Origin: Acidovorax defluvii
Lineage (GTDB): Bacteria > Pseudomonadota > Gammaproteobacteria > Burkholderiales > Burkholderiaceae_C
NCBI GenBank assembly: GCA_003268905.1
Contig: QLTU01000009.1
Coordinates: 62,001-126,000 of the forward strand
Reading direction: 5' to 3'
Length of the DNA: 64,000 nt
A program made the position numbers and the translations under genes. Shown piece by piece: positions 29,991 to 45,159 of the stretch. The stretch's first letter is position 1, and every line of letters starts with the position of its first letter. The notes under the pieces were generated by a model. The model was not told where the DNA came from. It ran no database searches and saw only the letters and a list, made by a program, of their open reading frames with translations.

Positions 29991-30974
29991 ATGGGTGAAT
30001 TCGACCTGATTGCACGCTACTTCACGCGGCCCGTGCGCCGCGCCGCCCTGGGCGTGGGCGACGACTGCGCGCTGCTCAAGCCCGCGCCGGGCATGCAGCT
30101 GGCCGTCTCCAGCGACATGCTGGTCGAGGGTCGGCATTTCTTTGCCGGCACCGACCCCGAGCGCCTGGGCCACAAGGCACTGGCCGTCAATTTGAGCGAC
30201 CTGGCGGCCTGCGGCGCGCGGCCGCTGGCGTTCACGCTGGCGCTGGCCTTGCCGCAGGTGGACGCAGCCTGGTTGGAGGGCTTCTCGCGCGGCCTGCTGC
30301 AGCTGGCCGACGCGCACGGCTGCGAGCTGGTGGGCGGCGACACCACGCAGGGTCCGCTCAACATCTGCATCACGGTGTTTGGCGAGGTGCCCACCGGCCA
30401 GGCGCTGCTGCGCAGTGGCGCGCAGCCCGGCGACGACATTTATGTAAGCGGCACGCTGGGCGAGGCGCGCCTGGCGCTGGACGCTTTGCAAGACCAGGCC
30501 GCCGCAGCCGCCCTGCCCGCCGAAACCCTCGCCGCTGCACGCCTGCGCCTGGAAGCGCCGACGCCGCGCGTGGCCTTGGGGCTGGCGCTGCGCGGCGTGG
30601 CCAGCAGCGCCCTGGATTTGAGCGACGGCCTGCTGGGCGACCTGGGCCATATCCTGCGCGCCTCGGGCGTGGGCGCCTGCATCGACACCTCAAAAACTAT
30701 TGATTTAATAGCTACTAGCGCCCTATCTATAAGCGTTACAGGCCAATTTGATGCGGATTACCTGCAGCAATGCACACTGGCCGGGGGCGACGACTATGAG
30801 CTGGCCTTCACCGCCGCGCCCGCACGCCGGGGCGCTGTGGCGGCGGCCGCGCAGGCCAGCGGCACCGCCGTGGCACGCATTGGCGTGGTGGAGGGCGCGC
30901 CGGGCCTGCGCCTGATCGACGCGCAGGGCCGGCCGGTGGCGCAGCGCTACGCCTCCTTCGACCACTTCGCCTGA
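29991..30974 (+). CDS. thiL: Thiamine-monophosphate kinase
   Basis: A 327-residue PurM-like kinase that phosphorylates thiamine monophosphate to the active cofactor. Motifs are GEFDLIARYF, GVGDDCALL, SSDMLVEGRHFF, NLSDLAACGARP, GGDTTQG and DLSDGLLGDLGHI. Residues 234-255 (SKTIDLIATSALSISVTGQF in part) are encoded by a copy of the dispersed AGCGCTT repeat and are AT-rich compared with the rest; the reading frame remains intact. The region lies beyond the core nucleotide site, so the enzyme is probably active. Confidence 0.95.
   Translation: MGEFDLIARYFTRPVRRAALGVGDDCALLKPAPGMQLAVSSDMLVEGRHFFAGTDPERLGHKALAVNLSDLAACGARPLAFTLALALPQVDAAWLEGFSRGLLQLADAHGCELVGGDTTQGPLNICITVFGEVPTGQALLRSGAQPGDDIYVSGTLGEARLALDALQDQAAAAALPAETLAAARLRLEAPTPRVALGLALRGVASSALDLSDGLLGDLGHILRASGVGACIDTSKTIDLIATSALSISVTGQFDADYLQQCTLAGGDDYELAFTAAPARRGAVAAAAQASGTAVARIGVVEGAPGLRLIDAQGRPVAQRYASFDHFA
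30690..30755. repeat. AGCGCTT/AAGCGCT dispersed repeat, copy E, inside thiL
   Basis: AATAGCTACTAGCGCCCTAT, then CTATAAGCGTTACAGGCCAATTTG. The arms are degenerate, but both flanks (AATAGCT, GGCCAATTTGA) match the family. It is in frame within thiL. Confidence 0.7.
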
Positions 30975-30993: not shown

Positions 30994-31710
30994 TCAGGCG
31001 GCTGCGCCCGCGGCGATGCGCGCACGCGGATCCAGCAGCTCGCACAACAGCTCGACATGGCTGCTGCGCAGGCCCTCCAGCCCCATGGCGGGCTCGCGGC
31101 CCAGGATCATTTGCGCCAGTAGCGCGTGGGACAAGGGGGCCATCACCAGCCAGGGCTCGCGCACGATGACGCTTTCCGGCAGGCCATGGTGCGCGGCATG
31201 CGCGCGCAGCATGGCCGCGAGCTGGAGCACGCTGGGCTGCATCACGTTGCGCTCCCACAACCCCACCAGGTCTTGCACGCGGTCCCTCTCGGCCGCCAGC
31301 AGGCGCAGCGTGGCCACCGCGGCCGGCCGCTCCAGCAGCACCGCATACAGCCTGTCGACCACCCACTGCGCAAACGCCCGGGTGCCGGCCTCGATCGGCG
31401 GCGCAGGCATTTCCTGCCACTCGGGCGGCACCAGGGAGCGATTGAGCAAGGCCTGGAAGATCACGTCCTTGCCGGGAAAGTGCGCGTACAGCCCCCCCTT
31501 GGACAGGCCGCAGCGCCGCCCGATGCCGTCCATCGTGGCGGCGGCAAAGCCGCTTTCGGAAAACTCCACCAGGGCCGCGTCCAGGATCTGCGCCATGCGC
31601 AGCTGTGGCGCCAGGCGCCGGCGCGCCGGCGGGGCAGCAGCGGCGCAAGAAGGGGGGGTCGGTTCCGGCATGGCGGTTTGCATCATCGTGGCTTGCATGG
31701 TATCTTGCAT
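30994..31710 (-). CDS. TetR-family transcriptional regulator
   Basis: About 238 residues with an N-terminal TetR HTH (residues 38-85: RMAQILDAALVEFSESGFAA, MDGIGRRCGLSKGGLYAHF) and a C-terminal ligand domain of 150 residues. An in-frame ATG at 31749 exists, but translation from it would run through the operator-like palindrome at 31721-31734, so I prefer 31710. It diverges from the phaC operon and most likely represses it. The ligand is unknown; the neighbouring exporter and acyl-CoA enzymes suggest a hydrophobic or acyl compound. Confidence 0.88.
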   Translation of the reverse strand: MQDTMQATMMQTAMPEPTPPSCAAAAPPARRRLAPQLRMAQILDAALVEFSESGFAAATMDGIGRRCGLSKGGLYAHFPGKDVIFQALLNRSLVPPEWQEMPAPPIEAGTRAFAQWVVDRLYAVLLERPAAVATLRLLAAERDRVQDLVGLWERNVMQPSVLQLAAMLRAHAAHHGLPESVIVREPWLVMAPLSHALLAQMILGREPAMGLEGLRSSHVELLCELLDPRARIAAGAAA

Positions 31711-31720
31711 CAGGTTAATT

Positions 31721-31734
31721 ACCGACTGGTCGGT
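31721..31734. promoter_or_regulatory. TetR-like operator palindrome
   Basis: ACCGAC, TG, GTCGGT: perfect 6-bp arms, extended by AATT and TAATT on the outside. It lies between the tetR start and the phaC promoter. Confidence 0.7.
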
Positions 31735-31740
31735 TTTTAA

Positions 31741-31765
31741 TTGATGCATAACTGATGTGCATCAA
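31741..31765. promoter_or_regulatory. FNR-type box within a larger inverted repeat
   Basis: CTGATGTGCATCAA (31752-31765) differs from the FNR consensus TTGATnnnnATCAA at one base. It is centred at 31758.5, about 41 bp before the start predicted from a TAGAGT -10 box at 31787-31792, the classic class-II activator position. The same stretch also forms TTGATGCA, nine bases, TGCATCAA. Confidence 0.6.
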
Positions 31766-31786
31766 GCCGTGCCGGCGTGGTTCTCC

Positions 31787-31792
31787 TAGAGT
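31787..31792 (+). promoter_or_regulatory. Candidate -10 box of the phaC operon
   Basis: TAGAGT matches TATAAT at four positions and would start transcription near 31799. The -35 region overlaps the right half of the FNR box, as expected for an activated promoter. Confidence 0.45.
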
Positions 31793-31834
31793 TGCCAAGG
31801 AGTTCCCCGAACACCCTGCGAAAGGATTTGCTCC

Positions 31835-33580
31835 ATGCACAACACCCCTTTTTCCGCAACGGCGATGGCCGACCGCGTGGATCCGCCATTCCATGCCGCA
31901 TTGGCACGCCGGTTTGCCTCGCTCTCCCCCGCCGCAGGCCTGCTGGCCGCCAGCGACTGGGCGCTGCACCTGGCCGCGTCGCCCGGCAAATGCATGGATC
32001 TGGCCCGCCTGGCCATGCACCAGAGCGGCGAGCTGGCCGAATACGCTCGCGAACGCATGACCGCCGGCGCCGACCAGCAGGCGCGCCTTGGCGTGCAACC
32101 CGCCGTCGAGGACAGGCGCTTCAGGGCCCCCGAATGGCAGCAGTGGCCGTTCAACTACCTGCACCAGTCGTTCCTGTTCAAGCAGCAATGGTGGGCCGCC
32201 GCCACGCACGGCGTGCAGGGCGTGGAGAAACACCATGAAAACATGGTGGCCTTCGCCGCCCGCCAGTGGCTGGACATGTTCTCGCCCGGCAACCAGCTGG
32301 CCACCAACCCGGTGGTGCTGCAGCGCACGCTGCAGCAGGGCGGCGCCAACCTGCTGCGCGGCGCGCTGAATGCGGCCGATGACCTGCAGCGCCTGGCCGC
32401 GGACCAGGGCCCCGCGGGGGTTGAGGACTTCGTGGTCGGGCGCGACGTGGGCATCACGCCGGGCAAGGTGGTGCTGAAGAACCGCCTGATGGAGCTGATC
32501 CAGTACACGCCCACCACGGCGACCGTGCACCCCGAGCCGATCCTGATCGTGCCGGCCTGGATCATGAAGTACTACATCCTCGACCTGTCGCCGCACAACT
32601 CGCTCATCCGCTACCTGGTGGACCAGGGCTACACGGTGTTCTGCCTGTCCTGGAAGAACCCCGGCTACGAAGACCGCGACCTGGGCATGGACGACTACCT
32701 CGAACTGGGCTTTCATGCCGCGCTCGACGCCGTCACCACCATCGTCCCCGGGCAGAAGGTGCATGCCACCGGCTACTGCCTGGGCGGCACCATGCTGGCC
32801 ATTGCCGCCGCCGCCATGGCGCGCGATGGCGACGAGCGCCTGGCCTCGCTATCGACGTTCACGGCGCAGACCGACTTCTCCGAACCGGGCGAGCTGGGCC
32901 TGTTCGTCGACGAGAGCCAGCTCAGCCTGCTGGAGGCGCAAATGGCCCAGACCGGCTACCTCAAGGCCAGCCAGATGGCGGGCGCGTTCCAGATGCTGCG
33001 CTCCTACGACATGCTGTGGTCGCGCCTGGTCAACGAATACCTGCTGGGTGAGCGCGCCCCGATGAACGACCTCATGGCCTGGAACGCCGACGCCACGCGC
33101 ATGCCGGCCCGGATGCACTCGCAATACCTGCGCCGGCTGTTCCTGAACGACGACCTCAGCGAGGGCCGCTATCCCGTGGACGGCAAGCCCGTGTCGCTGA
33201 GCAACCTCACGCTGCCCATGTTCATGGTCGGCACGCTGACCGACCACGTCGCGCCCTGGCGCTCGGTCTTCAAGCTGCACCAGATGAGCCCGGCGGAAAT
33301 CACCTTCGCACTCACCAGCGGCGGGCACAACGCCGGCATCGTGAATCCGCCCGGCAACCCGCGCCGCCGCTACCAGTTGCTGACCCGCCCCGCGGGCGGC
33401 AGCTATGTGGCGCCCGACGAGTGGCTGGAGACGGCGCCCCAGACGCAAGGCTCCTGGTGGCCCGCCTGGCTGCAGTGGCTGCAGGCGCGCTCCGGCACCC
33501 CGGTCAAGCCGCCACGCATGGGCGCGGGCGCCTACCAGCCGGTGGGCGACGCGCCGGGCACCTATGTATTGGAGAAGTAA
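31835..33580 (+). CDS. phaC: Polyhydroxyalkanoate synthase (class I-like)
   Basis: A 581-residue alpha/beta-hydrolase enzyme that polymerises (R)-3-hydroxyacyl-CoA. The catalytic triad is visible: C315 in the lipase-like box HATGYCLGGTML, D470 in TLTDHVAPW and H498 in SGGHNAGIVNPPGN. The PhaC N-terminal domain occupies residues 70-240, ending near YTPTTATVHPEPILIVPAW. AAAGGA lies upstream of the ATG at 31835. As first gene of a nine-gene operon with a MaoC-phosphotransacylase fusion and acetate kinase, it probably acts in carbon storage under oxygen limitation instead of being the main housekeeping synthase. Confidence 0.93.
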   Translation: MHNTPFSATAMADRVDPPFHAALARRFASLSPAAGLLAASDWALHLAASPGKCMDLARLAMHQSGELAEYARERMTAGADQQARLGVQPAVEDRRFRAPEWQQWPFNYLHQSFLFKQQWWAAATHGVQGVEKHHENMVAFAARQWLDMFSPGNQLATNPVVLQRTLQQGGANLLRGALNAADDLQRLAADQGPAGVEDFVVGRDVGITPGKVVLKNRLMELIQYTPTTATVHPEPILIVPAWIMKYYILDLSPHNSLIRYLVDQGYTVFCLSWKNPGYEDRDLGMDDYLELGFHAALDAVTTIVPGQKVHATGYCLGGTMLAIAAAAMARDGDERLASLSTFTAQTDFSEPGELGLFVDESQLSLLEAQMAQTGYLKASQMAGAFQMLRSYDMLWSRLVNEYLLGERAPMNDLMAWNADATRMPARMHSQYLRRLFLNDDLSEGRYPVDGKPVSLSNLTLPMFMVGTLTDHVAPWRSVFKLHQMSPAEITFALTSGGHNAGIVNPPGNPRRRYQLLTRPAGGSYVAPDEWLETAPQTQGSWWPAWLQWLQARSGTPVKPPRMGAGAYQPVGDAPGTYVLEK

Positions 33581-33582
33581 GC

Positions 33583-34350
33583 ATGGTTTTTGATTTGCAC
33601 GGCAAAAAGGGGCTGGTCGTCGGCATTGCCAACGAGGACAGCATTGCCTGGGGCTGCGCGCGCGCCTTCCGCGCCGCTGGGGCCGAGCTGGCCGTCACCT
33701 GGCTGAACGAGAAGGCCCGCCCCTACGTCGAGCCGCTGGCAGAGCAGCTGCAGGCCCCCATCCAGCTGCCCCTGGACGTGGAGCAGGACGGGCAGATGGA
33801 AGCCGTCTTCGACGCCCTGGGCGCGCGCTGGGGGCGGCTGGACTTCTTGCTGCACTCGATTGCCTTTGCCCCCGCCGCCGACCTGCATGGCCGCGTGGCC
33901 GACAGCTCGCGCGAAGGGTTCGCGCGCGCCATGGACATCTCCTGCCACTCCTTCGCCCGCATGGCCCGGCTGGCGGAGCCGCTGATGCAGGAGGGCGGCA
34001 GCCTGCTGGCCATGAGCTATCTTGGCGCCGAGGAGGTCATCTCCAACTACGGCCTGATGGGCCCGGTGAAGGCCGCGCTGGAATCGAGCGTGCGCTACCT
34101 GGCCAGCGAGCTGGGCCCGCAAGGCATCCGCGTGAACGCCATATCGCCCGGGCCGCTGGCCACGCGCGCGGCCTCGGGCATACAGCACTTCGACCAGCTG
34201 CTGGCCGACGCCGCCCAACGCGCACCGCTGCGGCGCCTGGTGAGCATTGAAGACGTGGGCGCGCTGTGCACCTTCATGGCCAGCGATGCCTCCCGCTCGA
34301 TGACCGGCAGCACGCTGTATGTCGATGCAGGCTTTCACATTCTTGGCTGA
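33583..34350 (+). CDS. fabI: Enoyl-[acyl-carrier-protein] reductase, FabI type
   Basis: A 255-residue short-chain dehydrogenase of the divergent enoyl reductase class. It begins with the FabI-type cofactor motif GLVVGIANEDSIAWGCA, and the catalytic pair is Y156 and K163 (NYGLMGPVKAALESS), the same residue numbers as in E. coli FabI. LHSIAFAP and NAISPGPLATRAASGI are also typical. It starts two bases after the phaC stop. Operon location suggests a second, condition-specific reductase that uses enoyl thioesters as an electron sink. Confidence 0.9.
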   Translation: MVFDLHGKKGLVVGIANEDSIAWGCARAFRAAGAELAVTWLNEKARPYVEPLAEQLQAPIQLPLDVEQDGQMEAVFDALGARWGRLDFLLHSIAFAPAADLHGRVADSSREGFARAMDISCHSFARMARLAEPLMQEGGSLLAMSYLGAEEVISNYGLMGPVKAALESSVRYLASELGPQGIRVNAISPGPLATRAASGIQHFDQLLADAAQRAPLRRLVSIEDVGALCTFMASDASRSMTGSTLYVDAGFHILG

Positions 34351-34360
34351 AAGCAGTCCC

Positions 34361-35827
34361 ATGTCTCCCCGCCTCCACCCTCCTTTCGCGCCGCGCCGCC
34401 TGGCCCTTGCCCTGGCGGCAGCCGCGCTGGCGCTCGCGGGCTGCGCCTCCATGGCCCCGCCCCATGAGACCCCGGCGCTGCCCGTGCCGGCGCGCTATGC
34501 CGCGCCGGACACGGACGCGGCCGCGGTTGCCGCCGCAGGCACCGGCTGGCGCGATTACTTCAACGACCCGAGCCTGCAGGCACTGATCGAGCAGGCGCTG
34601 GCGCACAGCCGCGAGCTGCGCGCCACCGCGCTGCGCGTGGACGAGGCCCGCGCCCTGTATGGCATCCAGCGCGCCGATCTGCTGCCCACCGTGGGCGCGC
34701 AGGCCGGCATGGAGCGCACGCGCGTGCCCGGCGACCTGAACCTGACGGGCCAGCCCGTGGTGGGCAGCCAGTACCAGGCGGGCCTGGGCCTGGCCAGCTG
34801 GGAGCTCGACTTCTGGGGCCGCGTGCGCAGCCTGCGCGACGCGGCGCTGGAGAACTACCTGGCCAGCGACGCGGCGCGCCACGCCGTCACCGTGAGCCTG
34901 GTGGCCCAGGTGGCCAACAGCTACCTGGCGCTGCGCGAGCTCGATGAGCGCCTGGCGCTGGCCGAACAAAGCCGCGCCAGCCGCGAGGAGAGCCTGCGCA
35001 TCTCCACGCGCCGCGTGGAGGCCGGCTCCGACTCGCGCCTGCACCTGACCCAGATGCAGACACTGCTGACCCAGGCCCAGGCCCTGGTGGCGCAGCTGGA
35101 GCTGGCACGCGCCCAGCAGGCCCATGCGCTGGATCTGCTGGTGGGTGCGCCCGTGGCGCTGGCGCCGGCCGCCGGCCGCCTGGACGCGCAGCACATGCCG
35201 CGCCTGCGCGCCGGCCTGCCCTCGGATCTGCTGGCCCAGCGGCCCGACATCGTGGCCGCCGAGCACCAGCTGCGCGCGGCCAACGCGCAGATCGGCGCCG
35301 CGCGCGCGGCCTTCTTCCCGCGCATTGCGCTCACGGGCTCGCTGGGCAGCGCCAGCGCCGAGCTGGGTGGCCTGTTCGACGGCGGTAGCACGGCCTGGAC
35401 GTTCTCGCCCAGCCTCTCGCTGCCGATCTTCAACGGCGGGCGCCTGAAGAACAGCCTGGCCCTGGCCGAGGTGCGCCGCGACCTGGCCGTGGCGAACTAC
35501 GAGCAAACCGTGCAGCAGGCCTTCCGCGACGTCTCGGACGCGCTGGCCGGGCAGCAGTGGCTGGCACGCCAGCGCAGCATCGCCCAGCAGGCCCTGGCCG
35601 TGCAGACCGAACGCGCGCGCCTGTCCCAGCTGCGCTACGACCACGGCGCCGCCGCCTTCCTGGACGTGCTGGACGCGCAGCGCGACCTGCTCGTGGCCCA
35701 GCAGCAGGCGGTGCAGGTGCACCGTGCCCTGCTGTCCAGCCAGGTCAGCCTGTACGCCGCGCTGGGCGGCGGCGCCCTCGCGCCCGCCACCCCGCCTACC
35801 GAACCCCACAAGCCCGACACACCATGA
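34361..35827 (+). CDS. NodT/OprM-type outer-membrane efflux lipoprotein
   Basis: A 488-residue outer-membrane factor. A signal peptide with lipobox LAGC (Cys near 28) is followed by two repeated OEP domains (residues 60-250 and 280-465) with the expected helical patterns (ALIEQALAHSRELRATALRVDEAR in part, QRPDIVAAEHQLRAANAQIGAARA in part, FPRIALTGSLGS). It forms the TolC-like channel for the adaptor and ABC transporter encoded next. The stop overlaps the HlyD start (ATGA). Confidence 0.92.
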   Translation: MSPRLHPPFAPRRLALALAAAALALAGCASMAPPHETPALPVPARYAAPDTDAAAVAAAGTGWRDYFNDPSLQALIEQALAHSRELRATALRVDEARALYGIQRADLLPTVGAQAGMERTRVPGDLNLTGQPVVGSQYQAGLGLASWELDFWGRVRSLRDAALENYLASDAARHAVTVSLVAQVANSYLALRELDERLALAEQSRASREESLRISTRRVEAGSDSRLHLTQMQTLLTQAQALVAQLELARAQQAHALDLLVGAPVALAPAAGRLDAQHMPRLRAGLPSDLLAQRPDIVAAEHQLRAANAQIGAARAAFFPRIALTGSLGSASAELGGLFDGGSTAWTFSPSLSLPIFNGGRLKNSLALAEVRRDLAVANYEQTVQQAFRDVSDALAGQQWLARQRSIAQQALAVQTERARLSQLRYDHGAAAFLDVLDAQRDLLVAQQQAVQVHRALLSSQVSLYAALGGGALAPATPPTEPHKPDTP

Positions 35828-36897
35828 AATCCCCGCCCAAGAACCGTTTGATTCCTCTCGCCATCGTGGCCGCCGCACTGGCCGCCGGCATCTACGCCTG
35901 GACGCAGATGCGCGCCACCGGCCCGGGCGAGCACTTCGTCAGCGGCAATGGCCGCATCGAAGCCACCGAGGTGGACGTGGCTGCCAAGCTGGGCGGGCGC
36001 GTGCAGGACATCCTGGTGCAGGAAGGCGACTTCGTCAGCGCCGGCCAGCTGCTGGCGCACATGCAGCTCGACACGCTCGAAGCCGTGCATGCCGAAGCCA
36101 GCGCGCGCCAGCAGCAGTCCGTGGCCGCCCTGGCCAGCGCCCAGGCGCAGGTGGCGGTGCGCGAAAGCGACAAGCAGGCCGCCCAGGCCGTGGTGGCGCA
36201 GCGCCAAAGCGAGTTCGACGCCGCCCGGCGGCGCCTGGCGCGCTCGCAAACGCTGGTGAGCGAGGGCGCCGCATCCGACCAGGAGGTCGATGACGACCGC
36301 GCGCGCGAGCGCAGCAGCCAGGCGGCCGTGGCCGCCGCCCAGGCGCAGGTTCGTGCCGCGCAGGCAGCCATTGACGCCGCCCGCACCCAGGTCTCGGGCG
36401 CGCGCGCCACCGTCGCCGCCGCCGAGGCCACCGTGGCGCGCGCCAAGGCCGACATCGACGACAGCGCCCTCACCGCGCCGCGCGGTGGCCGCGTGCAGTA
36501 CCGCCTGGCGCAGCCCGGCGAGGTGCTGGGCGCGGGCGGCAAGGTGCTGAACCTGGTGGATCTGTCGGACGTCTATATGACCTTCTTCCTGCCCGAGACC
36601 GTGGCCGGCCGCGTGGCCCTGGGCAGCGATGTGCGCATCGTGCTCGATGCGGCGCCGCAGTATGCGATTCCGGCCAAGGTGAGCTTTGTCGCCAGCACCG
36701 CGCAGTTCACGCCCAAGACGGTGGAGACGCAGAGCGAGCGGCAGAAGCTGATGTTCCGCATCAGGGCGCAGATCGACCCGCAGCTGCTGCAAAAGCACCT
36801 GCGCCAGGTCAAGACCGGGCTGCCCGGCGTGGCCTGGGTCAAGCTGGACGCGCAAGAGCCCTGGCCCGCCAACCTCGACACGCGCCTGCCGGAGTGA
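35824..36897 (+). CDS. HlyD-family membrane-fusion adaptor (YhiI-like)
   Basis: A 357-residue adaptor: one N-terminal anchor helix (IPLAIVAAALAAGIYAW), a lipoyl/barrel-sandwich half (GRIEATEVDVAAKLGGRVQD in part), an unusually Ala/Gln/Arg-rich coiled coil of about 160 residues (residues 90-220), the second lipoyl half (ALTAPRGGRVQYRLAQPGE in part) and a beta-barrel domain. It should bridge the ABC pump and the outer-membrane channel. Confidence 0.9.
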   Translation: MKSPPKNRLIPLAIVAAALAAGIYAWTQMRATGPGEHFVSGNGRIEATEVDVAAKLGGRVQDILVQEGDFVSAGQLLAHMQLDTLEAVHAEASARQQQSVAALASAQAQVAVRESDKQAAQAVVAQRQSEFDAARRRLARSQTLVSEGAASDQEVDDDRARERSSQAAVAAAQAQVRAAQAAIDAARTQVSGARATVAAAEATVARAKADIDDSALTAPRGGRVQYRLAQPGEVLGAGGKVLNLVDLSDVYMTFFLPETVAGRVALGSDVRIVLDAAPQYAIPAKVSFVASTAQFTPKTVETQSERQKLMFRIRAQIDPQLLQKHLRQVKTGLPGVAWVKLDAQEPWPANLDTRLPE

Positions 36898-36903
36898 CGC
36901 CGC

Positions 36904-39645
36904 GTGGCCACTGAAACACTTGAACCCGTCGTGCGCCTGCAGGCCGTGGCGCTGCACTACGGCAAGACGCTGGCGCTGGACAGCGTGGATCTGGACATTC
37001 CGGCCGGCCGCATGGTCGGCCTGATCGGTCCCGACGGCGTGGGCAAGTCCAGCCTGCTGTCGCTGGTGGCCGGCGCGCGCGCCGTGCAGCAGGGCAGCGT
37101 GCATGCCCTGGGCGGCGACATGGCCAGCAAGCAGCACCGCAGCACGGTCTGCCCGCGCATCGCCTACATGCCGCAGGGCCTGGGCAAGAACCTGTACCCG
37201 ACGCTGTCGGTGGAGGAAAACCTGCAGTTCTTTGCGCGCCTGTTCGGGCACGACGCCGCCGAGCGGCGCCGCCGCATCGACGACCTCACGGGCAGCACCG
37301 GGATGACCCCTTTCCTGGGGCGTCCGGCGGGCAAGCTCTCGGGCGGCATGAAGCAGAAGCTGGGCCTGTGCTGCGCCCTGATCCACGACCCCGACCTGTT
37401 GATCCTGGACGAGCCCACAACCGGGGTCGATCCGCTGGCGCGCGCGCAGTTCTGGGATTTGATCAAGCGCATCCGCCAGGACCGCCCGCAGATGAGCGTG
37501 ATCGTCGCCACCGCCTACATGGACGAGGCGCAGGGCTTCGACTGGCTGGTGGTGATGGACGAGGGCCAGGTGCTGGCCACCGGCACGCCGGCCGAGCTGT
37601 TGGCGCGCACCGCGAGCAGCTCGCTCGAAGGCGCTTTCATCGCCCTGCTGCCCGAAGAGAAAAAACGCGGCTATGCGCCGGTGGAGATACCGCCGCTGCC
37701 GGACGGCGGTGCCGACGACATCGCCATCGAGGCCCAGGGCCTGACCATGCGTTTTGGCGACTTCACCGCCGTGGACAGTGTGAGCCTGCGCATACGGCGC
37801 GGCGAAATTTTCGGCTTTCTCGGCTCCAACGGCTGCGGCAAATCCACCACCATGAAGATGCTGACCGGCCTGCTGGAGGCCAGCGCCGGCCAGGCCTGGC
37901 TGTTCGGCCAGGAGGTGGACCCGAAGAACATCGCCACGCGCCAGCGCGTGGGCTACATGTCGCAGGCCTTCTCGCTCTACGGCGAGCTGACGGTGCGGCA
38001 AAACCTGGTGCTGCACGCGCGCCTGTTCCATGTGCCCGAGACCGAGGTGGAGCAGCGCGTGGCCGAGATGGTGCAGCGCTTCGACTTGGTAGGGGCGCTG
38101 GACAGCCTGCCCGAAAGCCTGCCGCTGGGCATGCGCCAGCGGCTGTCGCTGGCGGTGGCCATGGTGCACAAGCCGGACCTGCTCATCCTCGACGAGCCGA
38201 CCTCGGGCGTGGACCCGGTGGCGCGCGACAACTTCTGGCGCCTGCTGGTCGAGCTGTCGCGCCGCGACAAGGTCACGATCTTCATCTCCACCCACTTCAT
38301 GAACGAGGCCGAGCGCTGCGACCGCATGTCGATGATGCACGCCGGCAAGGTGCTCGACAGCGACGCGCCCGCCCGCCTGGTGGCCAAGCGCGGCGCCAGC
38401 AGCCTCGAAGAGGCCTTCATCGGCTACCTGGTGGAGGCCGGCGGCGGCGCCGCACCGGATGCAGCGCCCGCCGCCGCCGCACCGGCCGCAGCCCCGGTCA
38501 GCGCCGAGCATGCGAGGCCATCGGGCTTTTCGCTGCAGCGCCTGTGGAGCTACCTGTGGCGCGAGACGCTGGAGCTGCAGCGCGACCCGGTGCGCGCCAC
38601 GCTGGCCCTGGGCGGCTCGCTGATCCTGATGTTCATCATGGGCTTTGGCATCAGCATGGACGTGCAAGACCTGCGCTACGCGGTGCTGGACCGCGACCAG
38701 AGCACGCTGAGCCAGAACTACGCCCTGAACCTGGCGGGCTCGCGCTACTTTCTGGAGCAGCCGCCGATCGTCGATGACGCCGACATGGAGCGGCGCATGC
38801 GCAGCGGCGAACTGGCTCTGGCCATCGAGATTCCGCCCGGCTTCGGCCGCGACGCGACGCGCGGCCGCCCGGTGGAGGTGGGCGCCTGGATCGACGGCGC
38901 CATGCCCACCCGTGCCGAGACCGTGCGCGGCTATGTGCAGGGCATGCACCTGCAATGGCTCGGCGAGCAGGCGCGCGCCCGCGGCATGGCCACCGGCGCC
39001 ACGGTGGCCATGGAGACGCGCTTTCGCTACAACCCCGACGTCAAGAGCCTGCCGGCCATGGTGCCGGCCGTGATTCCGCTGTTGCTGATGATGCTGCCGG
39101 CGATGCTCACCGCGCTGGCGGTAGTGCGCGAGAAGGAGATGGGCTCGATCATCAACCTGTACGTCACGCCGGTGACGCGCACCGAGTTCCTGCTCGGCAA
39201 GCAGCTGCCCTACGTGGCGCTGGCGATGCTGAACTTCCTGCTGATGTGCCTGCTGGCCGTCACCGTCTTTGGCGTGCCCATGACCGGCAGCTTCTTCACG
39301 CTGGCGCTGGCGGCACTGATCTTCAGTTTCTCGGCCACCGGCATGGGGCTGCTGGCCTCGGCCGTGACGCGCAGCCAGATCGCCGCGATGTTCTTCGCCA
39401 TGATTGGCACGCTGATTCCGGCCACGCAGTTCGCCGGGCTGACGGATCCCGTAGATTCGCTACAGGGGGCGGGACGGTTCATCGGCGACATCTACCCCGC
39501 GACCTACATGTTCTCCATCAGCCGGGGCGTGTTCAGTAAGGCGCTTTATATGTCCGACCTGCATTCGCAGTTCTGGCCGTTGCTGCTCTCGGTGCCGGTG
39601 ATCATTGGCGTCGCCATCATTCTTCTGAAAAAGCAGGATCAGTGA
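36904..39645 (+). CDS. RbbA/YhiH-type ABC protein: two ATPase domains fused to an ABC-2 permease
   Basis: A 913-residue fusion. ATPase 1 (residues 10-240) has Walker [10 protein letters not shown], signature LSGGMKQKL and Walker [13 protein letters not shown]. ATPase 2 (280-500) has GSNGCGKST, a degenerate signature LGMRQRLSL and [12 protein letters not shown]. An Ala/Pro linker (505-530) leads to an ABC-2 permease with one helix near 570 and five or six between 715 and 910. The start is a GTG at 36904. HlyD-RbbA-ABC2 order matches the yhiI-rbbA-yhhJ set of E. coli. RbbA was described as ribosome-associated, but the fused permease argues for export. Confidence 0.92.
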
Positions 39646-40772
39646 TGCCGCGCCATCTTGCCAACATCTACCGCCTGGGCGTCAAGGAACTGTGGAGCCT
39701 GCTGCGCGACCCGGTCATGCTGGTGCTCATCGTCTATACCTTCACGGCCTCGGTCTATACCGCTGCCACGGCCATGCCCGAGACGCTGCACAACGCCGCC
39801 ATCGCGGTGGTGGACGAAGACGCCTCCAACCTCTCGGGGCGCATCATCTCGGCCTTCTATCCGCCGCAGTTCGGCACGCCGCAGCTGATCTCCCCCGAGG
39901 AGATGGACGCCGGCATGGACTCCGGCCGCTACACCTTCGTGCTGCGCATCCCCTCGGGCCTGCAGCGCGACGTGCTGAGTGGCCGCGCGGCCGCGCTGCA
40001 GCTGAACGTGGACGCCACACGCATGAGCCAGGCCTTCACGGGCAGCGGCTACGTGCAGCAGATCGTGCAGGGCGAGATCAACGAATTCACCCAACGCTAC
40101 CGCACCACCACCGTACTGCCGGTGGAGCTGTCGCTGCGCGCACGCTTCAACCCGGAACTGAACAAGACCTGGTTTGGCTCGCTGATGCAGATCATCAACA
40201 ACGTGACCATGCTGTCCATCATCCTGACCGGCGCGGCCCTGATCCGCGAGCGCGAGCATGGCACCATCGAGCACTTGCTGGTCATGCCCGTCACGCCCAC
40301 CGAGATCATGCTGGCCAAGGTCTGGTCCATGGGCGCGGTGGTGCTGCTGGCCGCCGCTCTGTCGCTGCAGTTCGTGGTGCGCGGCCTGCTGAAGGTGCCC
40401 ATCGACGGCTCGGTGCCGCTGTTCCTGGCGGGCTCGGCGCTGTGCCTGTTCGCCACCACCTCCATGGGCATCTACCTGGCGACGCTGGCGCGCAGCATGC
40501 CGCAGTTCGGCCTGCTGATGGTGCTCACGCTGCTGCCGCTGCAAATGCTGTCGGGCGGCATGACGCCGCGCGAGAGCATGCCCGAGCTGGTGCAGAACAT
40601 CATGCTGTTCGCCCCCACCACGCACTTCGTCCAGCTGGCCCAGGCCATCCTGTACCGCGGCGCTGGCCTCAGCGTGGTGTGGCCGCAGTTCCTGGCGCTG
40701 CTGGCCATTGGCTCCGTGCTGTTCGGCCTGTCGCTGGCGCGCTTTCGCAAGACCATCAGCCAGATGGCCTGA
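39645..40772 (+). CDS. ABC-2 type permease (YhhJ-like)
   Basis: A 375-residue permease with one N-terminal helix (DPVMLVLIVYTFTASVYTA), a 130-residue periplasmic loop and five C-terminal helices; the ABC-2 motif is seen in EREHGTIEHLLVMPVTPTEIM (in part). Its start overlaps the preceding stop as TGATG. It should form a heterodimeric membrane part with the fused permease of the RbbA-like protein. Confidence 0.92.
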   Translation: MPRHLANIYRLGVKELWSLLRDPVMLVLIVYTFTASVYTAATAMPETLHNAAIAVVDEDASNLSGRIISAFYPPQFGTPQLISPEEMDAGMDSGRYTFVLRIPSGLQRDVLSGRAAALQLNVDATRMSQAFTGSGYVQQIVQGEINEFTQRYRTTTVLPVELSLRARFNPELNKTWFGSLMQIINNVTMLSIILTGAALIREREHGTIEHLLVMPVTPTEIMLAKVWSMGAVVLLAAALSLQFVVRGLLKVPIDGSVPLFLAGSALCLFATTSMGIYLATLARSMPQFGLLMVLTLLPLQMLSGGMTPRESMPELVQNIMLFAPTTHFVQLAQAILYRGAGLSVVWPQFLALLAIGSVLFGLSLARFRKTISQMA

Positions 40773-40807
40773 TCCGTTCAATCCTGCCATTCACCCAGAG
40801 GAGCTCC

Positions 40808-42250
40808 ATGCCGGACATTGCCCCCCCAACCGCCCAGGCCGCGCCGCACGACGACCTCGCCACGGTGCGCAACCGCACCTTCGACGAGCTCGCCATCGGC
40901 GACAGCGCCACCATAGAGCGCACGCTCAGCACCGAGGACATCCAGCTGTTTGCCGTGCTCTCGGGCGACGTGAACCCGCAGCACCTGGACGCGGACTACG
41001 CCGCGTCCACGCGCTTTCACGGCGTCATCGCCCACGGCATGCTGGGCGGGGCGCTGATCTCGGCCGTGCTGGGCACGCGCCTGCCCGGCCCGGGCACCAT
41101 CTACCTGGGGCAAACGCTCAAGTTCCTGGCGCCCGTGCGCGTGGGCGACCGCCTGCGCATCAGCGTTACCGTGAGCGCGCGCAACGAGGCCAAGAAGCAC
41201 CTGACGCTGGCCTGCAGCTGCGTGAACCAGGACGGCACCGCCGTCATCAGCGGCGAGGCCGAGGTGGTGGCCCCGACCGAGCACATCGAGCGCCCACGCA
41301 CCACCCTGCCCGAGGTACGCATGAGCGTGGGCCAGGACGGCATGGAGCGCCTGCTCGAACATGTGCGCCCGCTGGGCCGGCTGCGCGTGGCCGTGGTCCA
41401 CCCCTGCGACGCGCTGAGCCTGGGCGGCGCCATGGACGCCTACGCCGCCGGCCTGATCGAGCCGGTGCTGGTGGCCCCGCGCGCACGCCTGCTGGCCGTG
41501 GCGCAGGAGGCCGGCCTGGATCTGGCCGGCATCGCCATCGAGGACGTGCCGCACAGCCACGCGGCGGCCGCGCGCGCCGTGGCGCTGGTGCTGGAGGGCC
41601 GGGTGCAGGCGCTGATGAAGGGCAGCCTGCACACCGACGAGCTGATGGCCGCGGTGGTGGCATCGCAGGGCGGGCTGCGCACCAAGCGGCGCGTGAGCCA
41701 CTGCTTCCTGATGCAGACGCCGGCCTACCCGCGCCCGTTCATCATCACCGACGCCGCCATCAACATTGCGCCCACGCTGGACGACAAGGCCGACATCGTG
41801 CGCAACGCCATCGACCTGGCGCACGCCATCGGCGTGGCCGAGCCGCGCGTGGCCATCCTGGCGGCGGTGGAGACCGTGACCGCCACCATGCCCGCCACGC
41901 TGGACGCAGCCGCGCTGTGCAAGATGGCCGACCGCGGGCAGATCACCGGCGGCCTGCTGGACGGGCCGCTGGCGTTTGACAACGCGGTGTCGATCGCCGC
42001 CGCGCGCACCAAGGGCATCGTCTCCGAGGTGGCGGGCCGCGCCGACATCCTGGTGGTGCCCGACCTGGAGAGCGGCAACATGCTGGCCAAGCAGCTCGAA
42101 TACCTGGGCGACGCCGCCAGCGCCGGCATCGTGCTCGGCGCGCGCGTGCCCATCGTGCTGACCAGCCGCGCCGACGCGCGCGACACCCGCCTGGCGTCCT
42201 GCGCCGTGGCCGTGCTGCTGGCGCACCACTACCAGGAGGCGCCGCTATGA
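40808..42250 (+). CDS. MaoC-like (R)-enoyl-CoA hydratase fused to phosphate acyltransferase
   Basis: A 480-residue bifunctional protein. Residues 20-150 are a MaoC hotdog domain with the (R)-hydratase motif FAVLSGDVNPQHLDADYA (catalytic D and H) and HGVIAHGML. Residues 175-475 are a phosphotransacetylase/phosphotransbutyrylase domain (VHPCDALSLGGAMDA, LMKGSLHTDELM, ITDAAINIAPTLDDK, DGPLAFDNAVS, VPDLESGNMLAKQLEY). The first domain can supply (R)-3-hydroxyacyl-CoA for PhaC; the second turns acyl-CoA into acyl phosphate for the kinase downstream. AGAGGA precedes the ATG at 40808. This domain fusion is known from related bacteria. Confidence 0.92.
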   Translation: MPDIAPPTAQAAPHDDLATVRNRTFDELAIGDSATIERTLSTEDIQLFAVLSGDVNPQHLDADYAASTRFHGVIAHGMLGGALISAVLGTRLPGPGTIYLGQTLKFLAPVRVGDRLRISVTVSARNEAKKHLTLACSCVNQDGTAVISGEAEVVAPTEHIERPRTTLPEVRMSVGQDGMERLLEHVRPLGRLRVAVVHPCDALSLGGAMDAYAAGLIEPVLVAPRARLLAVAQEAGLDLAGIAIEDVPHSHAAAARAVALVLEGRVQALMKGSLHTDELMAAVVASQGGLRTKRRVSHCFLMQTPAYPRPFIITDAAINIAPTLDDKADIVRNAIDLAHAIGVAEPRVAILAAVETVTATMPATLDAAALCKMADRGQITGGLLDGPLAFDNAVSIAAARTKGIVSEVAGRADILVVPDLESGNMLAKQLEYLGDAASAGIVLGARVPIVLTSRADARDTRLASCAVAVLLAHHYQEAPL

Positions 42251-43437
42251 GCGATCTAGTCCTAGTCCTGAACTGCGGCTCGTCCAGCATCAAGTTCGCG
42301 CTGTTCGACGCCGGCGTGCAGCCGCTGCCGCGCCAACCTTTGTGGAACGGCAAGGTCGAAGGCATCACCGGCCCCGCGCCCACCTTTGGCGAAACCGGCA
42401 CCGTGCCCGGCCCGGTGACGCTGGACAGCGCCCAGCCCTACCATGCCGCGCTGGTGCACATCCGCACGCGCGTTCTGGCCCGCCTGGGCAGCCACCGCAT
42501 CGCCGCCGTGGCGCACCGCGTGGTGCATGGCGGCGCCAAATACTTCGACCCGGTGCGCGTGGACGCCGCCGTGCTGGCCGACCTCAAGACCTACATCCCG
42601 CTGGCGCCCCTGCACCAGCCGTTCGCGCTGGAAGCCATCGAGACGCTGCTGGCCACCGCGCCCGGCCTGCCCCAGGTGGCCTGTTTTGACACGGCCTTCC
42701 ACCACACGCTGCCCGATGTCGAGAAAATGCTGCCCCTGCCCTACGACGCGTGGGAGCGCGGCCTGCGCCGCTATGGCTTTCATGGCCTGTCATACGAGTT
42801 CATGTCGGTCGCGCTGGCCGAGCGCCATGGCGATGCCGCGCGCGGCCGCACCATCGTGGCCCACCTGGGCAGCGGTGCCAGCCTGTGCGCCATGCAGGGC
42901 CTGCGCAGCGTGGCCACCACCATGGGATTTTCGGCGCTCGACGGGCTGATGATGGGCACGCGCTGCGGCGCGCTCGACCCCGGGGCCGTGCTGTACCTGA
43001 TGGAGATCGAAAAGCTCACGCTCGCACAGGTGGGCCATGTGCTGTATCACGAGTCGGGGCTGCTGGGCCTGTCGGGCGTGTCGTCCGACCCGCGCGTGCT
43101 GCTGCAGCAGGAAGCCGGCAACGAACGCGTGCAGGCCGCGCTGGCCCTGTATGTGCGGCGCATCGTGCGCGAGATCGGCGCCATGACCGCCGTGCTGGGA
43201 GGGCTGAACATGCTGGTCTTCACCGCCGGCATTGGCGAGCACAATGCCGCCATCCGCGAACGCATCTGCCGCGAACTGGCCTTCCTGGGCGTGGCGCTGG
43301 ATGCCGACGCCAACGCGCTGAACGCACCCGTCATTTCGCCCGCCGCCAGCCGCGTGCAGGTGGCTGTAGAGCCCACCAATGAAGAATGGATCGCCGCCTG
43401 GCGCACCCTGGCGCTGGTCGGCTTGCCCGGCCAATGA
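42247..43437 (+). CDS. ackA: Acetate kinase family enzyme
   Basis: A 396-residue kinase that makes ATP from acyl phosphate and ADP. Signatures are VLNCGSSSIKFALFD, VAHRVVHGG, CFDTAFHHTLP, HLGSGASLCAM, GFSALDGLMMGTRCGALDPG (in part) and FTAGIGEHN. The start overlaps the previous stop (ATGA). Because its partner is a phosphotransacylase fused to a hydratase, the true substrate may be a longer acyl phosphate such as butyryl phosphate. Confidence 0.93.
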   Translation: MSDLVLVLNCGSSSIKFALFDAGVQPLPRQPLWNGKVEGITGPAPTFGETGTVPGPVTLDSAQPYHAALVHIRTRVLARLGSHRIAAVAHRVVHGGAKYFDPVRVDAAVLADLKTYIPLAPLHQPFALEAIETLLATAPGLPQVACFDTAFHHTLPDVEKMLPLPYDAWERGLRRYGFHGLSYEFMSVALAERHGDAARGRTIVAHLGSGASLCAMQGLRSVATTMGFSALDGLMMGTRCGALDPGAVLYLMEIEKLTLAQVGHVLYHESGLLGLSGVSSDPRVLLQQEAGNERVQAALALYVRRIVREIGAMTAVLGGLNMLVFTAGIGEHNAAIRERICRELAFLGVALDADANALNAPVISPAASRVQVAVEPTNEEWIAAWRTLALVGLPGQ

Positions 43438-43469
43438 GTTCACCCTTTCACTTTCGCCAAGAGTTCCCC

Positions 43470-43955
43470 ATGTACGAAAAAATCCTGGTTCCCTTCGACG
43501 GCAGCCCGACCTCTGAACAAGCCCTGAAAGAAGCCGCCGGCCTGGCGCTGAAACTGGGGGCGCAGGTGCGCCTGCTGCACATCATCGACCCGCTGACGCA
43601 TGCGGTCGGTTTTGTGCGCCCCGAGGTCTACCGGAGCGACTTCCTTCCCGCCGCCATGAAGTGCGCCGAGACCATGTTGCGCACGGCCTGCGATCAGCTT
43701 ACCGCGCAAGGCATCCAGGCCGAAACCCGCCTGCTGGAAAACCTGGACGCCCAGGTGGCAACGCTCGTGATCGACGAAGCCCGGCAGTGGGGCGCCCGCC
43801 TGATCGTGCTGGGCACCCAGGGGCGGCGAGGCCTGGCGCGCATGTTCCTGGGCAGCGATGCCGAGCAGATTGCACGCACATCTCCGGTGCCGGTGCTGCT
43901 GGTGCGCCTGCCTGCGCACGCGCCCGCCGGCACACAGCCTGCGGCGTCCGCATAA
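43470..43955 (+). CDS. Universal stress protein, UspA family
   Basis: A 161-residue single Usp domain (MYEKILVPFDGSPTSEQALK) with the ATP-binding motif GTQGRRGLARMFLGSDAEQI, so it is probably of the ATP-binding class. It follows ackA by 32 bp and closes the operon. UspA proteins next to PHA and acetate kinase genes are a familiar combination in low-oxygen loci of Burkholderiales, which supports the predicted FNR control. Confidence 0.92.
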   Translation: MYEKILVPFDGSPTSEQALKEAAGLALKLGAQVRLLHIIDPLTHAVGFVRPEVYRSDFLPAAMKCAETMLRTACDQLTAQGIQAETRLLENLDAQVATLVIDEARQWGARLIVLGTQGRRGLARMFLGSDAEQIARTSPVPVLLVRLPAHAPAGTQPAASA

Positions 43956-44056
43956 GCGCGCCGCAGGCATAAGTGGGGGCCGTTGGGCCCGCCACCCGTG
44001 CGGAGGATGCGGCTGCTAGCATTCCCCTTCCTGATGCAACGCCCCAAGGTTCCCGC

Positions 44057-44638
44057 GTGATTCCCACCCCATCTGGCGCCCCCCGCGACACGGTCGATGT
44101 GACCGATGCCACGCCGCGCGCCCCCGGCACACCGCCACCGCCGCGTCGGCCCACTGCCGCTTTCATGCTGCAGCACCCGGCGCACTGCCTTGCACTGGGC
44201 TTTGGCGCGGGCCTGAGCCCCAAGGCGCCGGGCACCGTGGGCACCCTGTGGGCCTGGCTGGCGTTTCTGGTGCTGCAGCACTGGCTGGACCCGCAGCAAA
44301 TGGGCCTGCTGATCGGCGCGGGCACGGTGGTGGGCTGGTGGGCCTGCACCATCACCGCGCGGCACATGGGCGTGTCCGACCCCGGCAGCATCGTCTGGGA
44401 CGAGGTCGTGGCCTTCTGGCTGGTGCTGTGGCTGGCCATGCCCATGGGGTTGTGGGGCCAGGCCGTGGCGTTTGCCCTGTTTCGCTACTTTGATGCCGCC
44501 AAGCCCGGGCCCGTGGGCTGGGCCGACCAGCTGTTCAAGGGCTTTGGCTGGCGGGGCGGCTGGGGCATTTTGTTCGACGACTTTGTGGCGGCGTTTTGCA
44601 CACTGCTGGTCATTGCGGTGTGGAGGTTCTTCTGGTGA
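44057..44638 (+). CDS. pgpA: Phosphatidylglycerophosphatase A
   Basis: A 193-residue membrane enzyme that dephosphorylates phosphatidylglycerol phosphate. Motifs are LALGFGAGLSPKAPGTVGTL, GSIVWDEVVAFW, RYFDAAKPGPVGWADQ and GWGILFDDFVAA, which hold the conserved acidic residues. A proline-rich N-terminal extension of about 30 residues is unusual. The GTG at 44057 (AAGG upstream) is chosen; longer starts lack a binding site. Confidence 0.9.
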   Translation: MIPTPSGAPRDTVDVTDATPRAPGTPPPPRRPTAAFMLQHPAHCLALGFGAGLSPKAPGTVGTLWAWLAFLVLQHWLDPQQMGLLIGAGTVVGWWACTITARHMGVSDPGSIVWDEVVAFWLVLWLAMPMGLWGQAVAFALFRYFDAAKPGPVGWADQLFKGFGWRGGWGILFDDFVAAFCTLLVIAVWRFFW

Positions 44639-45159
44639 CCGCCCCATCACTATCAAAAGAAGAGCTGCTGGCGCTTGATGGTAAAGGGCTAGAGGCTATT
44701 TTGATTCAAATTTCTGCCCAACTGCTCACGCGCGGCTGGATGCTGGCCACCGCCGAAAGCTGCACTGGCGGCATGATCGCCGCCGCCTGCACCGACCTGG
44801 CAGGCTCCAGCCAGTGGTTCGAGCGCGGCTTCGTCACCTATTCCAACGCTGCCAAGACCGAGCTGCTGGGCGTGCCCGCCGCGCTGATTGCGCAGCACGG
44901 CGCCGTCAGCGAGCCCGTGGCACGCGCCATGGCAGAAGGCGCGGTGGCGCACGCGCACGCCCAGGTGGCCGTGGCCGTCACCGGTGTCGCTGGCCCCACG
45001 GGCGGCAGTGCCGACAAGCCCGTGGGCATGGTGTGGTTTGGCTGGTGCGTGGCCGGGCAAACGCACAGCCAGGTGCAGCACTTTGCGGGCGACCGCGCCG
45101 CCGTGCGCGCTGCCACGGTGCGCCATGCGCTGGCGCGGCTGCAGGCGCTGCTGGCGTAG
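44635..45159 (+). CDS. pncC: Nicotinamide-nucleotide amidohydrolase (CinA C-terminal family)
   Basis: A 174-residue single-domain CinA_C protein that deamidates nicotinamide mononucleotide in pyridine nucleotide recycling. Motifs are LATAESCTGGMIAAACTDLA, GFVTYSNAAKTELLGV, AVTGVAGPTGGSADKPVG and VWFGW. The GTG start overlaps the pgpA stop (GTGA). Residues 6-30 (KEELLALDGKGLEAILIQI) are encoded by a copy of the AGCGCTT repeat; a short helix there normally precedes the catalytic part, so the insertion sits at a tolerant place. Confidence 0.92.
   Translation: MTAPSLSKEELLALDGKGLEAILIQISAQLLTRGWMLATAESCTGGMIAAACTDLAGSSQWFERGFVTYSNAAKTELLGVPAALIAQHGAVSEPVARAMAEGAVAHAHAQVAVAVTGVAGPTGGSADKPVGMVWFGWCVAGQTHSQVQHFAGDRAAVRAATVRHALARLQALLA
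44652..44722. repeat. AGCGCTT/AAGCGCT dispersed repeat, copy F, inside pncC
   Basis: AGAGCTGCTGGCGCTTGATG, then GTAAAGGGCTAGAGGCTATTTTGATTC. It lies in frame at the N terminus of pncC and encodes LALDGKGLEAI, close to the peptide of copy D in gph. Confidence 0.75.

Follow-up and report, generated by a model that had tools for sequence, protein, structure and literature searches.

A recurrent operon joining polyhydroxyalkanoate synthase, acyl-phosphate enzymes and an RbbA-type exporter downstream of a putative low-oxygen promoter in Acidovorax defluvii

Organization of the operon

The window analysed here (64,000 nucleotides from contig QLTU01000009.1 of Acidovorax defluvii) contains an operon in which genes for a polyhydroxyalkanoate (PHA) synthase and for acyl-phosphate metabolism are joined to those of a tripartite exporter. 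Nine plus-strand genes were confirmed as a tight array, namely phaC, fabI, an outer-membrane factor (OMF) gene, an HlyD-type adaptor gene, rbbA, a permease gene, a fused maoC-phosphotransacylase (PTA) gene, ackA and usp. A minus-strand tetR gene diverges from the array, and all ten genes were given identities by domain searches. A first-pass annotation of this DNA had listed the nine genes in one direction with overlaps or short gaps, and both the coordinates and the domain searches bear this out. The intergenic spacing was 2 bp for phaC/fabI, 10 bp for fabI/OMF, -4 bp for OMF/HlyD, 6 bp for HlyD/RbbA, -4 bp for RbbA/permease (-1 bp with an ATG at 39645), 35 bp for permease/MaoC-PTA, which is the maximum in the array, -4 bp for PTA/ackA and 32 bp for ackA/usp. 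Starts were settled for OMF (34361), HlyD (35824), MaoC-PTA (40808) and usp (43470). The operon is probably transcribed as a single unit. Terminator-like sites on both strands numbered 8, compared with 4.1 (standard deviation 2.2) in shuffled sequences; those on the plus strand, all weak, were the palindrome described below and, inside the operon, a site at 39597-39615 and two overlapping ones at 42665-42679. The sole sigma-70-like promoter found was on the minus strand.

The enzyme genes flank the exporter genes. PhaC (31835..33580, plus strand, as are all genes in this and the next paragraph) is a PHA synthase of a divergent class I type (PF07167, 191 bits); it contains the PhaC_N and PHBC_N domains and scored below the cut-off of the class I model TIGR01838 (537 vs 622.65 bits), a model against which a second PhaC of the same genome (G000:C17) reached 712.7 bits. 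The next gene (33583..34350) encodes a FabI-type enoyl reductase of the PRK07533 subfamily (NF005717, 451.5 vs a cut-off of 337 bits) that keeps the Y-x6-K motif in an alignment with solved FabI; the genome's housekeeping FabI fits another model, NF005422. The fusion protein (40808..42250) combines a MaoC domain, of the R-specific hydratase kind, with a phosphotransacylase in one chain (PF01575 and PF01515), and it scored above the cut-off of the model for bifunctional enoyl-CoA hydratase/phosphate acetyltransferase (NF006045, 761 vs 282 bits). Its MaoC domain is closest to PhaJ-type (R)-specific enoyl-CoA hydratases (5cpg, 138.9 bits) and keeps the SGDxNPxHLD stretch; among solved structures, its PTA domain is closest to a phosphate butyryltransferase (7vg9, 227.5 bits), with 7t88, the best match named phosphate acetyltransferase, at 60.6 bits. 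AckA (42247..43437) is a kinase of the acetate/propionate family (TIGR00016, 345.9 vs 293.4 bits). The last gene (43470..43955) encodes a universal stress protein (PF00582, 105.8 bits), and usp adjoins just a few of the related operons. A second trio of ackA, MaoC-PTA and fabI lies elsewhere in the same genome (G000:C10:113001-125181, L207).

Within the exporter block, the OMF belongs to the NodT family (34361..35827; TIGR01845, 408.5 vs 210 bits). The HlyD-type periplasmic adaptor (35824..36897; PF13437) scored under the cut-off of NF002939 (162.6 vs 393 bits), and we call it YhiI-type on the strength of 64% identity to a Pseudomonas veronii protein annotated yhiI. RbbA (36904..39645) comprises two nucleotide-binding domains and a fused ABC-2 permease (PF00005 twice and PF12698) and is the sole copy in the genome above the cut-off of NF033858 (1575 vs 1050 bits). 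The separate ABC-2 permease (39642..40772; PF12698, 125.9 bits) owes its designation as YhhJ-type to 72% identity with a P. veronii protein annotated yhhJ; its other similarities, to a transport permease and a protein resembling ABCG23, were weak.

Recurrence of the linkage across genomes

In a sample of 250 genomes from the window's family, RbbA (E <= 1e-180) was found in 50 genomes, and MaoC-PTA, whole or as the PTA part, in 76 (E <= 1e-120). By a hand count, the two genes lay within 10 kb of each other in 19 of the 50 rbbA genomes; these 19 carry 13 genus labels (one of them, G372, has the PTA part only), and three further rbbA genomes (G322, G291 and G310) have phaC and/or ackA beside the exporter. 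Well under one linked genome would be expected by chance, as estimated for a 20-kb window in a genome of about 4 Mb. Two of the 19 (G381 and G391) hold near-identical copies in different genera, which may reflect recent transfer or contamination. The combined unit proposed in the first-pass annotation thus recurs, and because it does, the contrary possibility that the exporter is never linked to phaC or ackA in homologous loci fails. Linkage is much rarer outside the family, since in a wider sample of 150 genomes from the order, RbbA occurred in 19 genomes and was linked to PTA in three (G000, G133 and G064).

The same association was seen from the side of the enzyme. Among the best 80 of 591 confirmed relatives of the MaoC-PTA locus, 23 carry RbbA (>=45% identity, >300 bits) within the fetched stretch; with a looser RbbA score threshold, it was present in 21 of the 34 loci with a PTA at least 66% identical, vs 3 of the 46 below 66%.

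Predicted promoter and operator elements

The TetR-family regulator gene (30994..31749, minus strand; PF00440, 56.3 bits) has homologous divergent counterparts beside several related operons. Its start is probably near 31710, because the longest open reading frame overruns a palindrome, ACCGACTGGTCGGT, at 31721..31734. This palindrome is a probable TetR operator. Of 28 rows chosen by hand, 13 have a tetR gene beside them; the exact form ACCGAC(TG or CA)GTCGGT was found in seven of these (the window, L023, L166, L189, L193, L196 and L197) and was not found in the other six (L020, L150, L161, L188, L190 and L192).

Between the palindrome and phaC lies an FNR/ANR-type box, CTGATgtgcATCAA (31752..31765, plus strand), with one mismatch, one of three such sites with <=1 mismatch in the whole window. 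In class II promoters of FNR, the box is followed by a -10 hexamer about 22 nt downstream. Here a -10-like hexamer, TAGAGT (31787..31792, plus strand), lies 21 nt downstream of the box, so that the sequence layout matches that of a class II promoter. Of the 28 hand-chosen rows, most of them picked because an earlier scan had shown a site there, 18 have a TAnnnT hexamer at a distance of 21-23 nt from the box, a count made without a control.

The box itself was compared with 19 scrambled half-sites as controls, in 420 bp upstream of exporter loci near phaC, PTA or ackA (linked, 30 loci, the window not included) and of exporter loci lacking these neighbours (unlinked, 24 loci). The linked list omits near-copies (L187, L191 and L194), L010 and L199 (one genome), L024, L080 and L084, as well as loci cut by an edge (L030, L032, L036, L038, L039, L042 and L082); the unlinked list omits L163 (a near-copy of L154), L170, L173 and the edge loci L108, L156, L157, L175, L176 and L179. 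A box with <=1 mismatch was found in 19 of the 30 linked loci, compared with a mean of 0.16 and a maximum of 1 for the scrambled sites, and with <=2 mismatches in 27, compared with a mean of 2.0 and a maximum of 4. The window's genome also encodes an FNR homologue (L208), which has a cluster of cysteines near its N-terminus as well as an E-x-x-S-R stretch. On these sequence grounds, low-oxygen control of the operon appears well supported, in agreement with the first-pass annotation, which had pointed to the clustering of PHA, phosphotransacylase, acetate kinase and UspA genes in low-oxygen loci of Burkholderiales. FNR and TetR would both act on the operon.

Order variants, mobility and phylogeny

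The same order recurs, with variants, in Curvibacter, Xenophilus, Extensimonas, Ralstonia, Janthinobacterium and Luteimonas. The full order phaC-fabI-OMF-HlyD-RbbA-permease-PTA-ackA was found in seven genomes (L188, L190, L191, L193, L194, L196 and L197), two of which are Curvibacter gracilis and Xenophilus aerolatus. No fabI is present in two exporter-bearing Ralstonia loci (L012 and L014) or in the Extensimonas loci; in four Janthinobacterium loci no gene was seen ahead of fabI, but the stretch ends about 0.5 kb upstream, and in one Luteimonas locus (L020) fabI follows the divergent tetR. Operons without the exporter also exist: R. pickettii (L011) has phaC-PTA-ackA alone, Roseateles (L013) has the same three genes with neither exporter nor fabI, and Janthinobacterium sp. 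CG3 (L026) has phaC-fabI-PTA-ackA. Remnants were found as well. In a Xylophilus metagenome-assembled genome (MAG; L033/L202, one genome), the last 68 residues of the permease (309-376) remain between fabI and PTA, and short fabI fragments persist between phaC and OMF in L166 and L195. The exporter and fabI have thus been gained and lost separately. The comparison of gene order that the first-pass annotation had proposed, made here on the window's family, therefore shows the exporter block to be a separable cassette that is present, absent or deleted with a permease stump; a constant block is rejected by the exporter-free operons and the stump. A divergent RbbA clade of about 52% identity (L180, L181 and L182, all of one genus, g125) is linked to phaC and PTA in another order. 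A DUF3141 protein recurs beside PTA and ackA (L018:7694-9970 and L249:17013-19481, both PF11339); it is annotated so in L257, and relatives of the L249 protein occur in L038, L186 and L189.

Plasmids carry reshuffled versions. Those of P. veronii, Sphingobium yanoikuyae, Novosphingobium resinovorum and Rhizorhabdus wittichii hold the exporter, phaC, phosphotransacylase and ackA, and three of the four also hold fabI and phbB. On S. yanoikuyae pF1 (NZ_CP033227.1, 347000-375000; L250), the module lies between two copies of IS6100 in the same direction and contains TetR, phaC, MaoC-PTA, ackA, fabI, a phospholipase A gene, phbB and the exporter. The trio of phosphotransacylase, ackA and fabI recurs on plasmids of Sinorhizobium, Sphingobium, Novosphingobium and Pseudomonas.

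A quick tree of rbbA, with many open forks, placed Lysobacteraceae and sphingomonad rows amid betaproteobacterial ones. MAG binning errors may lie behind some rows, such as a Lysobacter MAG (L038) that is near-identical to G391. When rows with phaC, PTA or ackA within 10 kb were labelled as linked (46 of 83), the label had to change 15 times on the tree, and supported branches force no fewer than 11 of these changes. The label was clustered nonetheless (mean of 27.6 changes after shuffling, with 0 of 500 shuffles as low), but a single origin of the linkage is not supported.

In the window, the operon splits thiL (29991-30974) from pgpA-cinA (43973-45159). In 8 of 20 relatives examined, thiL and pgpA-cinA adjoin directly, and five of these eight carry the operon elsewhere in the genome (G372, G321, G275, G220 and G330). 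In three (G153, G289 and G172), ackA lies immediately upstream of pgpA, as in the window, and in the other nine neither arrangement was seen within a 1.5-kb flank. The simplest reading of these flanks is that the unit was inserted as one block, at differing sites. The sequences thus establish the gene content and order, the promoter elements with their conservation, the recurrence of the linkage and the existence of copies on plasmids and at differing chromosomal sites.

Proposed function and alternative explanations

Our preferred explanation, to which we give a probability of roughly 45%, is that the locus is a low-oxygen operon, mobile, activated by FNR and probably gated by TetR, whose enzyme half forms a metabolic branch point and whose other half exports a lipid-like or acyl compound at low flux. 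When respiration slows, (R)-3-hydroxyacyl-CoA would be the branch-point substrate. In the polymer branch, it would be polymerised by PhaC. In the acid branch, it would be dehydrated to enoyl-CoA by the MaoC domain, reduced by the FabI-type enzyme with reoxidation of NADH, converted into an acyl phosphate by the phosphotransbutyrylase-like domain and finally released by the kinase as a short acid (butyrate, propionate or acetate) with a gain of ATP. For C4 compounds, the route would run from (R)-3-hydroxybutyryl-CoA through crotonyl-CoA, butyryl-CoA and butyryl phosphate to butyrate and ATP. The NodT factor, the YhiI-type adaptor, RbbA and the YhhJ-type permease would form a co-regulated tripartite ABC-2 exporter, the cargo of which is probably a lipid-like or acyl compound of the envelope, moved at low flux, rather than bulk acid. 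The reaction directions, the identity of the acid and the exporter substrate are those that we infer here. In favour of this explanation are the gene identities, the closeness of the PTA domain to a phosphate butyryltransferase and of the MaoC domain to PhaJ-type hydratases, the separate subfamily of this FabI, the enzyme trio found again elsewhere in the genome and on plasmids, the recurring FNR box and -10 layout, the FNR homologue, the RbbA-PTA linkage and the copy bracketed by IS6100.

Two observations bear on the cargo. The best solved relatives of the second nucleotide-binding domain of RbbA are ABCA phospholipid transporters, a similarity that is confined to this domain and does not show what is carried. 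Eight annotated rbbA plasmid regions, not a random set but chosen by rank or for also holding PTA, were inspected for phospholipase A, and in five of them such a gene is no more than about 10 kb away from the exporter (S. yanoikuyae, Thauera, N. resinovorum, R. wittichii and Acinetobacter, three of the genes being confirmed by PF02253). No such gene was found within about 10 kb in the plasmid regions of P. veronii, A. brasilense and S. baderi, and tblastn gave no phospholipase match in the unannotated regions of Burkholderia stagnalis and Paraburkholderia caribensis. Within the family, a hand count gave just 2 of 50 rbbA genomes with phospholipase A at a distance of up to 10 kb, the window's genome not among them. 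The gene lies directly downstream of the permease in G157 and G350, and likewise in the loci L168 and L176. Lipid cargo cannot be argued from phospholipase A linkage alone, which is weak in the family, and the sequences give a hint of it at most. In L168, L176, L248 and L254, phospholipase A occurs near or beside the RbbA exporter with PHA genes not nearby.

Several other observations weigh against our explanation. Exporter and enzymes are often apart, so that a shared substrate is not required. Of the linked loci, 11 of 30 lack a box with <=1 mismatch, and 7 of the 24 unlinked exporter loci hold one (scrambled mean, 0.16), so that the box goes with the exporter generally too; for the second trio of the genome, FNR control is rejected, since no box was found up to 400 bp from the assumed start of fabI. 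The PTA domain misses the cut-off for phosphate butyryltransferase (TIGR02706, 289 vs 410.5 bits) and passes that of NF008852, a model named phosphate acetyltransferase (483 vs 413 bits). The kinase resembles acetate/propionate kinases, with just 50.6 bits against the butyrate kinase model TIGR02707, and the acid may therefore be acetate or propionate. The action of the FabI-type enzyme on CoA thioesters is assumed.

The kinase type and the NF008852 score speak for conventional metabolism, in which the phosphotransacylase and kinase would act as Pta-AckA on acetyl-CoA for ATP, MaoC would feed (R)-hydroxyacyl-CoA to PhaC and FabI would serve fatty-acid synthesis for hypoxic membranes. Pta and ackA of Bradyrhizobium have been read by the authors as such an acetyl-phosphate ATP route (PMC10888616). 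The nearest solved relative of the PTA domain, a phosphate butyryltransferase, speaks against this explanation, as do the MaoC fusion and the close packing of pta, ackA and fabI, which point to a single pathway; we regard it as somewhat unlikely. An explanation from neighbourhood only would hold that genes of a stress regulon have been gathered in one place, with no chemistry common to exporter and enzymes. The many changes of the linked label on the rbbA tree fit this, as do the independent losses of exporter and fabI with stumps left behind. The 4-bp overlaps inside the operon, the clustering of the label and the re-formation of the association in several rbbA clades and on plasmids do not, and we consider mere neighbourhood unlikely.

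Two further explanations concern the exporter. It could pump out drugs or solvents in general and have no more than the regulon in common with the enzymes, with TetR sensing a toxic compound. A TetR gene beside NodT/HlyD pumps is a common efflux layout, and plasmid copies occur in sphingomonads and in P. veronii 1YdBTEX2, a degrader of aromatic solvents. A generic pump would not need to be joined repeatedly, in differing orders, to the same PHA and acyl-phosphate genes. FNR boxes upstream also speak against such a pump, and the identity of RbbA to copies in Escherichia coli records suggests a conserved cargo; such a role is also unlikely, to about the same degree as neighbourhood only. The first-pass annotation had instead proposed that the exporter secretes an acyl product of the operon (a hydroxyacid, fatty acid or oligomer) when respiration is limited. 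In its favour, the linkage recurs in varied arrangements, and the exporter genes often stand between phaC/fabI on one side and the MaoC fusion on the other. Nothing, however, ties the transporter to an acid or hydroxyacid: similar operons without an exporter keep the enzymes (L013 without and L026 with fabI), exporters exist without enzymes (28 of the 50 rbbA genomes, some at contig ends, show no phaC, PTA or ackA beside it), and among solved structures the ATPase domain has its best relatives in phospholipid transporters. ABC transporters spend about 2 ATP per cycle, a cost that would offset, and probably exceed, the 1 ATP earned with each acid, and bulk acid export is therefore disfavoured. 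Product secretion is the reading we hold to be very improbable.

To return to the low-oxygen operon with a branch point and a low-flux exporter, a more specific form of it would be a transferable hypoxia cassette. Here YhiI-RbbA-YhhJ with the OMF, sometimes together with phospholipase A, would export a lipid or acyl compound, while the MaoC, FabI-type, Ptb-like and AckA-type enzymes would run a previously undescribed fermentation from (R)-3-hydroxyacyl-CoA to butyrate in competition with polyhydroxybutyrate synthesis; in this detail, the proposal is speculative and rather unlikely. To our knowledge, no cargo of RbbA is known, despite its high conservation. The FNR-type promoter, the partners from acyl metabolism and the mobile copies suggest low oxygen as the condition, and acyl or lipid compounds as the chemical class, for a search, and because many species show the pairing, the cargo is now testable. 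From the enzyme half one would predict an outlet that yields ATP, consumes NADH and is tied to the storage polymer, in bacteria usually deemed respiratory.

Comparison with known systems

The exporter resembles E. coli YhiI-RbbA-YhhJ, whose genes form an operon; the RbbA of the window shares about 67% identity with copies from E. coli records. In the window, the transporter is joined to a NodT factor and to the PHA/acyl-phosphate operon under the FNR box.

For the combined unit, no description was found in the literature, searched mainly as open text, titles and the starts of abstracts. Within those portions, it is not described in PMC6127331, PMC6788730, PMC12889130, PMC11742914, PMC9733578, PMC3759415 or PMC10888616, and the terms searched for gave no occurrence in PMC9104464.

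Three systems are related in part. The lxa locus of Burkholderia cenocepacia, a 50-gene low-oxygen-activated locus, is similar in its low-oxygen induction and its universal stress proteins and differs in its size (PMC9733578 and PMC3759415). In the FixK2 regulon of Bradyrhizobium, phaC2 is activated by a regulator of the CRP/FNR type, and pta and ackA are induced in a phaR mutant; it differs in that phaC2 (bll6073) and pta-ackA (blr3457-blr3458) lie at separate places, and the portion of text examined mentions no RbbA exporter (PMC10888616). The DUF3141-pta-ackA-fabI operon of Sinorhizobium meliloti has the same enzyme trio and shares DUF3141 with the Janthinobacterium version; it differs in that the 27-kb stretch fetched contains neither phaC nor an exporter, and in its phosphotransacylase, which is annotated at about 318 aa and is too short for a MaoC domain. 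Overall, the operon is related to known low-oxygen PHA/acyl-phosphate clusters, with an RbbA exporter added.

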